A stretch of 50,565 nucleotides of DNA from Clostridiaceae bacterium. Lineage in GTDB: Bacteria > Bacillota > Clostridia > Saccharofermentanales > Saccharofermentanaceae. Of the stretch, positions 29,888-33,307 are shown piece by piece. Numbering within the stretch: position 1 is the first letter of the stretch; each line of letters begins with the position of its first letter. The stretch covers positions 1-50,565 of the forward strand of contig JAAYBI010000095.1 in NCBI GenBank assembly GCA_012718915.1, given 5' to 3'. A model generated the notes under the pieces. The model saw only the letters and a list, made by a program, of their open reading frames with translations, did no database searches and was not told the origin of the DNA. Both the position numbers and the translations under genes were made by a program.

Positions 29888-31669
29888 TTACATCGCGCTT
29901 ATAATTTCGACGAATACGTCCACAACTACGGGGTCGAACTGAGATCCCGAATTTACCTTTAATTCTTGAATCGCGAGTTCTTTGCTCATCGCTTTTCTGT
30001 AAACGCGATCTTGAGTCATAGCGTCATAGGCATCGACCACTGAAAGAATTCTGGAAATCAACGGAATAGCGGTACCGGAAAGTCCCTGCGGGTAACCCTT
30101 TCCATCCCATCGTTCGTGGTGTGTCAGGATGTAATCCGCTATCGAAATTAACTCCGGTGAAGACATCGCGATGCGGTAACCGATCTCGGTGTGCTTTCTC
30201 ATCTGAGCCCACTCTTCATCCGTTAACTTTCCGGGCTTATTCAAGATCTGATCGTTAACACCGATTTTGCCGATATCGTGAAGTGTTGCCAATAGCGCCA
30301 GTTCCGAAAGTTCCGTTTGAGATAAAGACATCTTCATGCCGACCAGTTTTGACAAATCCGATAAACGTTCAGAATGCGCCTCGGTTTCTTGACTGCGGGC
30401 GTGCATAGATTGCTTAATGGACTCGACAATGGAACTGTGCGAGCTTTTTCGCTCTAATAGCTTATGCTTGTTCATGTTTTCTTCAGCGAGTTTTTGTACC
30501 GACTCCAAAAAAATATCCGGATAATCCTTCGTTGCAATACCATAGGAAACATATATCCGGTCATAATCATTGGCTTGAGATCTGTTGTATTCGTGAAAAC
30601 CATTTTGGAGGCGATCCCAAAATGCCTCTGCTGATAATAAATCAGTATTTGGCATCAGAACCGCAAAATCGTCACCGCCCAATCGTGCAAACAAATACGA
30701 CTCTCTCAACATTTTTGTAATAATCCGCGAAGTCTCTTGGAGTAACAGATCTCCTCGTCTCATGCCAAAAGCATCATTGATGAGCTTCAATCCGTTAATG
30801 TCCAAAATCAATATGGACACCGGAATCGCTTCGGGATCATTGTCATATCGCATTTTCTGCTGCAGATACGTCTGTCGATTCAATGCACCGGTAAGATTGT
30901 CATGCGTCAAAAGATAATTAACCTGACTCTCTTTGTCTTTGCTTGCGGACACATTTATTATGAGTCCTTCTAAAGCTATAAGATTACCGTTATCATCGAA
31001 AACCGGCACACCTTGCTCGAGTACCCATAAACTCTCACCCGTAATTGTAATTATCGGATACTCCATCTTAAACGATCGGCGGTTGCGAACAGCCTCCTCC
31101 CAAGCATCCCAAACCATATCTCGAAAACTGGGATTAATGATGTCGTTGTATGTCAAATCGCGATTATGAATAAAACTTTCTGCTTTGTATCCGGTCAGCT
31201 CAAAGCATCCTTCTGATACCTCAAGCATGGTCCAATCCCTATCGTATCGGCACCGATATGCCATTCCCGGCAGGTTTTGAAAGAACACTTCCTTGCTTCT
31301 CTTGCTTTCATGAAGCTTGTCCTGAGCCATTTTTCGTTCTGTAACATCAAGAAGCAACAAAAGCGCACCATCCATAAACGGAGAAATACGGCACTCAAAA
31401 ACTTGACTCTCGGTGAAATGAATATAGTCCATTACAATTAATTTTTGCTCGTCGATTGCACGGCGAACCGCAGATATTAATGTGCTCGGCTCAATGGTGG
31501 CCGAATCGTACATTGGTTTTTTATTATCAATGAAAACGTCCGTCGAAAACAACTGCATTCTTGAATCGGAGTCAATCATGCAACCTTGATAGTCCACATA
31601 TGCAATACCGTCGAACATCTTTTCGAGCGAAAAAATAAATTCATGAAGTGTTGCTCTGTTAAAACCCAC
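29888..31669 (-). CDS. PAS-GGDEF-HD-GYP signalling protein
   Basis: 593 residues, cytosolic. PAS-like region 1 (about 10-110), PAS region 2 (about 125-245, with FQNLPGMAYRCRYD and WVLEQGVPVFDDNGN), GGDEF domain (about 250-405) and HD-GYP domain (about 415-593). The cyclase signature reads LGGDDF, a Glu-to-Asp change that may weaken or abolish c-di-GMP synthesis. The phosphodiesterase part is intact: HDIGKIG, then HHERWDGKGYPQGL with the GYP triad. Likely net activity is c-di-GMP hydrolysis controlled by PAS ligands. GTG start with GAGGAG 6 bases before. Convergent with the HD-domain gene; the 29819-29860 hairpin lies between. Confidence 0.9.
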   Translation of the reverse strand: MGFNRATLHEFIFSLEKMFDGIAYVDYQGCMIDSDSRMQLFSTDVFIDNKKPMYDSATIEPSTLISAVRRAIDEQKLIVMDYIHFTESQVFECRISPFMDGALLLLLDVTERKMAQDKLHESKRSKEVFFQNLPGMAYRCRYDRDWTMLEVSEGCFELTGYKAESFIHNRDLTYNDIINPSFRDMVWDAWEEAVRNRRSFKMEYPIITITGESLWVLEQGVPVFDDNGNLIALEGLIINVSASKDKESQVNYLLTHDNLTGALNRQTYLQQKMRYDNDPEAIPVSILILDINGLKLINDAFGMRRGDLLLQETSRIITKMLRESYLFARLGGDDFAVLMPNTDLLSAEAFWDRLQNGFHEYNRSQANDYDRIYVSYGIATKDYPDIFLESVQKLAEENMNKHKLLERKSSHSSIVESIKQSMHARSQETEAHSERLSDLSKLVGMKMSLSQTELSELALLATLHDIGKIGVNDQILNKPGKLTDEEWAQMRKHTEIGYRIAMSSPELISIADYILTHHERWDGKGYPQGLSGTAIPLISRILSVVDAYDAMTQDRVYRKAMSKELAIQELKVNSGSQFDPVVVDVFVEIISAM

Positions 31670-31781
31670 GAAGTTCTCCTCTTTGATTAATCATACATAC
31701 TAAAATTTTATCGCGATTGATAAAATCAATCAACGCAATACCGGAATAATTCACACTTCGTTTTATTCTAGATTATATCTT

Positions 31782-31817
31782 AAAGCAAAAGCCGAGTCGC
31801 ACATCAGCAACTCGGCT
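31782..31817 (-). terminator. terminator of the NifX-MinD-Mrp operon
   Basis: On the minus strand AGCCGAGT pairs with ACTCGGCT (31790-31817) around a 12-base loop, then TTTGCTTT. It lies 28 bases past the end of the flavin-reductase remnant. Confidence 0.85.
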
Positions 31818-31844
31818 CCATAGATATAATAACAAACCGTTGAA

Positions 31845-32050
31845 TTATAGAATATCGGCATCCACGTATATCTTGCCCAAATCATCCGGATACCTCGGAT
31901 CGGCTCGAATTATTCGATTATTTCCACAAACATCTCATGAGAACCGGTCCGAATGGAGTCAACCACCGTACACTTAAAATTGTCGGGACAATCCTCGAGA
32001 ACCGGTGCGCTGATCAGATACGCTCTTCGAGCACCGCTATAATCACATGA
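31845..32050 (-). pseudogene. flavin reductase / flavoredoxin fragment, frameshifted
   Basis: In frame directly after the mrp stop, 46 codons read SCDYSGARRAYLISAPVLED then CPDNFKCTVVDSIRTGSHEM and FVEIIE before a stop at 31910-31912. This matches the C-terminal half of flavoredoxin-type flavin reductases (the CxVVxxIxxGSHxxFxGEV strand pair). A +1/-1 shift near 31915 continues as RADPRYPDDLGKIYVDADIL, the family's usual ending, to a stop at 31845. There is no start codon and the N-terminal FMN-binding half is missing, so this is a decayed last gene of the operon. Confidence 0.65.
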
Positions 32051-33307
32051 TCAAGAACATGACCCATCATGTTCATGCTGATGTTCATGACAGATAGAGT
32101 CCGTAGACTTCAGATCACCCGAAAGATAAGCCTTAACCACATCCTCGGCCTCACCGGATGCGCCTACAATAACTTCAATACCCTTCTCGTTGAATATGTC
32201 TACTGCACCACCGCCCATGCCGCCTGCGATGATAACGTTTACACCAAGATCATTCAAGTAATTCGGCAAGAATCCCGGCTTATGTCCCGGGTTCTCATAA
32301 ACCTTTTCGCCGATAATCTGACCATCTTTCGCCTCAAACACAACGAAATGCTCGCAATGGCCAAAGTGCTCGGTGACTTTCTTATTCTCAGCGGCAACAG
32401 CAATAATCATTTTGCCATTACCTCCCACTGTACTCGAACCGGTCTTCAAATCTTTCTCCTCCAAACTCTTCTCGAGTCTATCCGCAACCTGATCCAACCA
32501 GTCCACGGTAAAGAACTCAATCAAACCCTTGTCGCAAGCCTTGGCAATTCGAGGGTCTAGAGGAATGCGCGCCAAAATATCCAACCCGTATCCCTCGGCG
32601 ATCTCTTCGAGATTACTCTTTCCGAAAATCTCATGTTCGCCGTCACAATCCGGACACTTGAAGTATGCCATATTCTCAACAAGCCCGAGAATCGGCACAT
32701 TCATCATGCGCGCCATCTTAACGGCTTTCTCTACAATCATAGAAACGAGTTCCTGAGGCGACGTAACGACAATAATTGCATCAACCGGCAAGGATTGAAA
32801 TACCGTCAACGCAACATCTCCGGTCCCCGGTGGCATATCAATAAACATGAAGTCAACATCACTCCAAAGTACATCGGTCCAAAACTGCGTCACGGTCGAT
32901 GCGATAATAGGGCCGCGCCACACGACCGGGTCAGACTCATTTTCGAGAAGAAGATTGATGGACATCAGTCTTGTTCCCTGCTGAGTTACAACGGGGAAAA
33001 GGCCATTCTCGGAACCTTTCGCGCGTTCCTTCACGCCAAAAGCTTTCGGAATTGACGGACCGGTCAAGTCGGCATCTAAAATGGCGGTTTCGTATCCGCC
33101 GCGGCGCATTCTGGCGGCCATCATTGAGGTAACTAATGATTTGCCGACACCTCCCTTGCCGCTGACGATACCGATAACCTTCTTGACACTGCTATACTCA
33201 TTGAGCTTTGCTTTGTTGTCAACGGGCGTCTGAGGCGCGCTTCCTGTCTTTGCACTATCGCAATTCGAAGCGCAACTGCTACAATTCTGATCACATTGGT
33301 CTGTCAT
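32051..33307 (-). CDS. Mrp/NBP35-type Fe-S carrier ATPase fused to NifX-like domain
   Basis: 418 residues. Cys-rich N-terminus (CDQNCSSCASNC), deviant Walker A GKGGVGKS (50-57), Walker B region MFIDMPPGTGD (154-164) and the cluster-bridging CPDC (218-221), all hallmarks of Mrp/NBP35 scaffolds that bind and transfer [4Fe-4S]. Residues 300-400 add a dinitrogenase iron-molybdenum cofactor (NifX/NifB-C) domain, including EHFGHCEHFVVFE and IIAGGMGGGAVDIF. The last 13 residues are His/Cys-rich (CHEHQHEHDGSC), likely metal-binding. Last intact gene of the operon, 34 bases after the MBL-fold gene. Confidence 0.92.
   Translation of the reverse strand: MTDQCDQNCSSCASNCDSAKTGSAPQTPVDNKAKLNEYSSVKKVIGIVSGKGGVGKSLVTSMMAARMRRGGYETAILDADLTGPSIPKAFGVKERAKGSENGLFPVVTQQGTRLMSINLLLENESDPVVWRGPIIASTVTQFWTDVLWSDVDFMFIDMPPGTGDVALTVFQSLPVDAIIVVTSPQELVSMIVEKAVKMARMMNVPILGLVENMAYFKCPDCDGEHEIFGKSNLEEIAEGYGLDILARIPLDPRIAKACDKGLIEFFTVDWLDQVADRLEKSLEEKDLKTGSSTVGGNGKMIIAVAAENKKVTEHFGHCEHFVVFEAKDGQIIGEKVYENPGHKPGFLPNYLNDLGVNVIIAGGMGGGAVDIFNEKGIEVIVGASGEAEDVVKAYLSGDLKSTDSICHEHQHEHDGSCS

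Follow-up and report, generated by a model that had tools for sequence, protein, structure and literature searches.

Remnant of a flavoredoxin-type flavin reductase gene between mrp and its terminator in a member of the Saccharofermentanaceae

Positions 31845-32050 of the window (the whole stretch of 50,565 nucleotides of contig JAAYBI010000095.1 that was analysed) are almost certainly a pseudogene, the dead form of an accessory flavin reductase gene of the flavoredoxin type. The remnant itself (31845..32023, minus strand) is the equivalent of codons 104-162 and the stop codon of a 162-codon gene. It is preceded directly upstream by an intact mrp gene (32051..33307, minus strand), encoding a MrpORP-type Fe-S carrier ATPase with a C-terminal Nitro_FeMo-Co domain (NF041136, PF10609 and PF02579). 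The window Mrp passes the NF041136 (MrpORP) model with 458.4 bits (cut-off 450) and is 92% identical to the Mrp of G001, the only genome of the same genus among the 39 genomes compared and the 31 listed of the 188 genomes of the order.

After the TGA of mrp, the mrp frame remains open and reads SCDYSGARRAYLISAPVLEDCPDNFKCTVVDSIRTGSHEMFVEIIE up to a TAA at 31912-31910 (minus strand), so the remnant does begin in the frame of mrp, as the preliminary description of this DNA had stated. Past the TAA, the flavin reductase homology continues in another frame as IRADPRYPDDLGKIYVDADIL, with the natural end of the protein, DADIL and the stop codon, at 31845. In a whole-genome profile search, PF01613, a family of flavin reductases with an FMN-binding split-barrel fold, matched 31907-32014 (minus strand) with an E-value of 0.0017 and 18.9 bits, with one TAA inside the match. 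This score is below the curated cut-off of 27 bits and only profile positions 96-131 of 153 are covered, as expected when only a fragment of the gene is left. A translated search gave a much clearer flavin reductase match: the intact G001 protein aligned with 31910-32047 (minus strand) at an E-value of 1.9e-12 and 59% identity, again with one TAA inside. At the DNA level, 31845-32024 matched the G001 locus with 77.0 bits (97 nt at 77%), versus 31.9 bits for the best of 200 single-base shuffles. The stretch had been described as the C-terminal half of a flavoredoxin-type protein; it is indeed the C-terminal part, but with 59 of 162 codons left it amounts to about a third. The intact G001 orthologue matches the solved flavoredoxins 3bnk (E 6.4e-20) and 2d5m (E 7.2e-19), which have 190-196 residues, compared with about 160 in the orthologues considered here and roughly the last third, with the frame broken, in the window.

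In G001 (contig C12), a flavin reductase gene of 162 codons starts 60 nt after the mrp stop codon and is followed by a terminator hairpin matching that of the window; this locus is apparently DUPM01000068.1, a metagenome-assembled 'Clostridiaceae bacterium'. An intact orthologue also directly follows mrp in G011 (contig C5), a genome of another genus of the same family, in which the order of the cluster is as in the window. Its neighbours before mrp are presumably, as judged by eye, two ATPase genes and a gene of the metallo-beta-lactamase fold. The one genome of the same genus and one of a further genus of the family carry the whole gene after mrp, where the preliminary description had proposed to look for it. 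A further mrp-flavin reductase pair, cut by the contig end, is present in L079, a contig assigned to a Smithella bin. The occurrence of a clostridial-type mrp cluster with a flavin reductase gene in a Smithella sp. bin is possibly a binning error. The orthologues of G001, G005, G011, G024 and G033 pass PF01613 at 105-112 bits (112.9 for G011). Since the pair is found in G001, G011 and L079, it was probably in place before the lineage of the window lost the gene. The ancestor of the genus would have had a short flavoredoxin-type gene as the last member of an ORP-type mrp cluster, directly after mrp.

Set against G001, the window has a gap of about 339 nt, which covers the final 32 nt of the mrp-flavin reductase spacer and 307 nt of the gene itself; the latter include the start codon and correspond to about codons 1-103. 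The N-terminal part has therefore gone through a large deletion. The 25 nt of the old spacer that survive at its 5' end (32026..32050, minus strand) align with nucleotides 1-28 of the G001 spacer, which has 60 nt. The deletion junction lies at approximately 32020..32028 (minus strand; its exact position is ambiguous), close to GAAGAGCG (32028-32021); the mrp stop codon and GAGCG are 25 nt apart. Contrary to the earlier proposal, the deletion did not set the tail of mrp against the remnant, as the junction sits in the spacer, 25 nt past the mrp stop. In G001 the spacer contains GAACAGAGCG and the flavin reductase gene GAACGAGC, and the two ends of the deletion therefore have a short similar sequence in common. 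The G001 spacer also contains a perfect 9-bp hairpin (-20.9 kcal/mol, without a T run), possibly an attenuator or a processing site; visual inspection of the G011 spacer showed no comparable hairpin. The left end of the deletion falls in the loop or the 3' arm of this hairpin. Slippage between the short similar sequences beside the hairpin is a plausible mechanism of the deletion, with the reservation that 4-5 matching bases can occur by chance.

The frameshift reported in the preliminary description was confirmed: compared with G001, a single nucleotide has been lost near 31912, close to the TAA (31910..31912, minus strand) that closes the first frame of the remnant. In addition, the Gly of an FVG motif has been replaced by Glu and the Glu of an NIE motif by Lys, both residues being invariant in 11 aligned orthologues (one of which, G005, is cut at its 5' end by a contig edge). 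Bacterial pseudogenes can arise by internal deletion and frameshift, and the remnant carries disabling lesions of both kinds with respect to an intact orthologue (a 5' deletion of 339 nt with the start codon, and a frame break with a TAA); in its truncation and broken frame it is like ordinary bacterial pseudogenes, with no notable difference. The claim that the operon lost a redox gene by deletion therefore stands, G001 having the whole gene at this place. In the proposed course of events, a deletion of about 340 nt in the lineage of the window would have taken out the distal half of the spacer together with the start of the gene, start codon included, as far as about codon 103, the loss of one nucleotide would independently have broken what remained, and substitutions, some at residues invariant in the orthologues, would then have accumulated.

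The loss had been thought recent, a view that the divergence of the remnant does not bear out, as it is about as far from G001 (59 of 179 sites differ, 33%) as the third codon positions of mrp (132 of 417, 32%; Fisher p 0.77). At codon positions 1 and 2, differences from G001 were found at 30 of 120 sites in the remnant versus 34 of 834 in mrp (p 1.6e-12), and the ratio of differences at positions 1+2 to those at position 3 was 30:29 versus 34:132 (p 2e-5). The comparison with mrp overstates this contrast, because intact flavin reductases also evolve faster than mrp. As a control, we compared the intact genes of G001 and G011, which differ at 40, 33 and 101 sites at codon positions 1, 2 and 3, respectively, over 162 codons. 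The corresponding ratios were 26:38 for the same region and 73:101 for the whole gene, from which the 30:29 of the remnant does not differ significantly (p 0.28 and 0.29); the G001-G011 pair is more distant than the window and G001, and its third positions are presumably nearer to saturation. When the differences were polarised with G011, a distant outgroup that left 16 of the 59 unassigned, changes on the side of the window fell at codon positions 1/2/3 as 9/6/7 and those on the side of G001 as 3/5/13, a contrast of 15:7 to 8:13 (Fisher p 0.069). The case for a dead gene thus rests on the lesions, the evidence from codon positions being weak alone. The divergence numbers lean to a loss that came soon after the lineages of the window and G001 had separated.

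The truncation could be an artefact of assembly if the genome had a whole gene and the contig were misjoined at this place. The genome is in 113 contigs and 96.22% complete, which gives some room for such an error, but mrp, the remnant and the terminator run on in the order seen in G001, and nothing close to the missing half was found in the rest of the assembly. A misjoin would also leave unexplained the divergence of the retained part, the break of its frame and the changes at invariant residues, and we regard it as very improbable. The lost half does not appear to have moved either: at E <= 10, residues 1-103 of the G001 protein matched in the window assembly only a paralogue on contig C77, at 33% identity. 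The whole-genome profile search returned two other PF01613 genes, on C77 and C80. Both have G001 orthologues (83% and 90% identity, respectively) with matching flanks, and neither is therefore a new substitute. The replacement copy for which the preliminary description had suggested a search was thus not found in the assembly, nor was the lost half found there a second time. At the completeness given above, the assembly may lack about 4% of the genome, and a replacement copy hidden in that part is possible yet unlikely. The flavodoxin family PF12724, with one match each in G000 and G001, led nowhere.

An intrinsic terminator-like hairpin with a T run is kept beyond the remnant, as had been noted earlier (31787..31818, minus strand). 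It has a 12-bp stem and a predicted energy of -21.6 kcal/mol, and its counterpart in G001 occupies the same place (-18.5 kcal/mol); a simple terminator scan gave one terminator-like site versus a shuffle mean of 0.3 (sd 0.8). With mrp and the terminator intact, the remnant is presumably transcribed as an untranslated tail of the mrp transcript. Several short ORFs overlap the stretch, of 40 aa (31763-31885) and 24 aa (32014-32088) on the minus strand and of 45, 37 and 29 aa (31840-31977, 31937-32050 and 31953-32042) on the plus strand; the 40-aa ORF shares the frame of mrp but lies beyond the TAA, in a region whose flavin reductase homology is in another frame. The remnant could in principle be a working element, coding for a short peptide or regulating mrp from its 3' untranslated region. 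These ORFs on both strands speak for it, as does the position between mrp and the terminator, where the remnant is probably transcribed, but this reading is very improbable, given that none of the 8 ORFs of at least 20 aa overlapping 31670-32050 gives a flavin-reductase-like reading, that no Rfam family matched 31500-32200 at the gathering threshold, and that, in what is a weak test, the changes on the side of the window show no excess at third positions. As a dead gene, the stretch would have no function of its own.

Among the best 80 of 483 named mrp loci, some of which end near mrp, a flavin reductase gene directly follows mrp in three (L070, L078 and L079), of which the first two are apparently identical with G001 and G011; the pair is thus not widely conserved. 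The matches in L148 and L134, about 0.7 kb and 4.6 kb past the mrp match, are paralogues with 24% and 21% identity, respectively. The short flavin reductase subfamily is itself patchy, with matches at E <= 1e-40 in 11 of the 188 genomes of the order. In two of these 11 (G001 and G011) mrp adjoins the gene, in two others (G005 and G173) less than about 0.35 kb of contig lies upstream, so that the presence of mrp cannot be judged, and in the remaining seven no mrp was found within the stretches of 6.8 to 11 kb around the gene; in one of the seven, G024, a DUF134-like match lies 2.8 kb away. Since mrp stands beside the gene in only 2 of 11 genomes, the flavin reductase is, on this genomic distribution, an accessory and not a core part of the mrp cluster, in one lineage. 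G024 also has a second, decayed flavoredoxin copy (G024:C22:34963-35328, minus strand; about 1440-1860 of L160), truncated at the 5' end and with several breaks (7 TGA were counted inside), while an intact copy is kept on C16. The decayed copy directly follows a gene that by eye is DUF5320-like and is near what looks like a transposase remnant. Together with the remnant in the window, it indicates that such genes have decayed at least twice in the order.

The two ATPase genes upstream of mrp in the window resemble, by eye, Orp3 and Orp4. The N-terminus of the window Mrp is rich in Cys and its tail, CHEHQHEHDGSCS, in His and Cys; by eye, both look as if they were metal-binding. An orange protein (ORP) gene cluster with MrpORP is known in Desulfovibrio vulgaris (PMC6345978), and the window is similar to it in that its Mrp passes the MrpORP model; the main text of the paper contains neither 'flavin' nor 'flavoredoxin'. 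Our literature search gave no paper joining flavoredoxin, flavin reductase and Mrp. One could speculate, with considerable doubt, that the short flavoredoxin subfamily, in an accessory role, provides the MrpORP/ORP complex of this lineage with electrons or flavin and is dispensable enough to be lost more than once (in the window, and as the second copy in G024, whose decay took another form).

The decay described here is ordinary gene decay, a familiar piece of biology that touches no open question. In practice, 31845-32050 should not be annotated as coding. The case is an example of an Fe-S carrier operon that has lost a single accessory redox gene, and a sister genome provides the intact arrangement for comparison. 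The adjacent flavin reductase may therefore be dispensable for the mrp cluster of this family.
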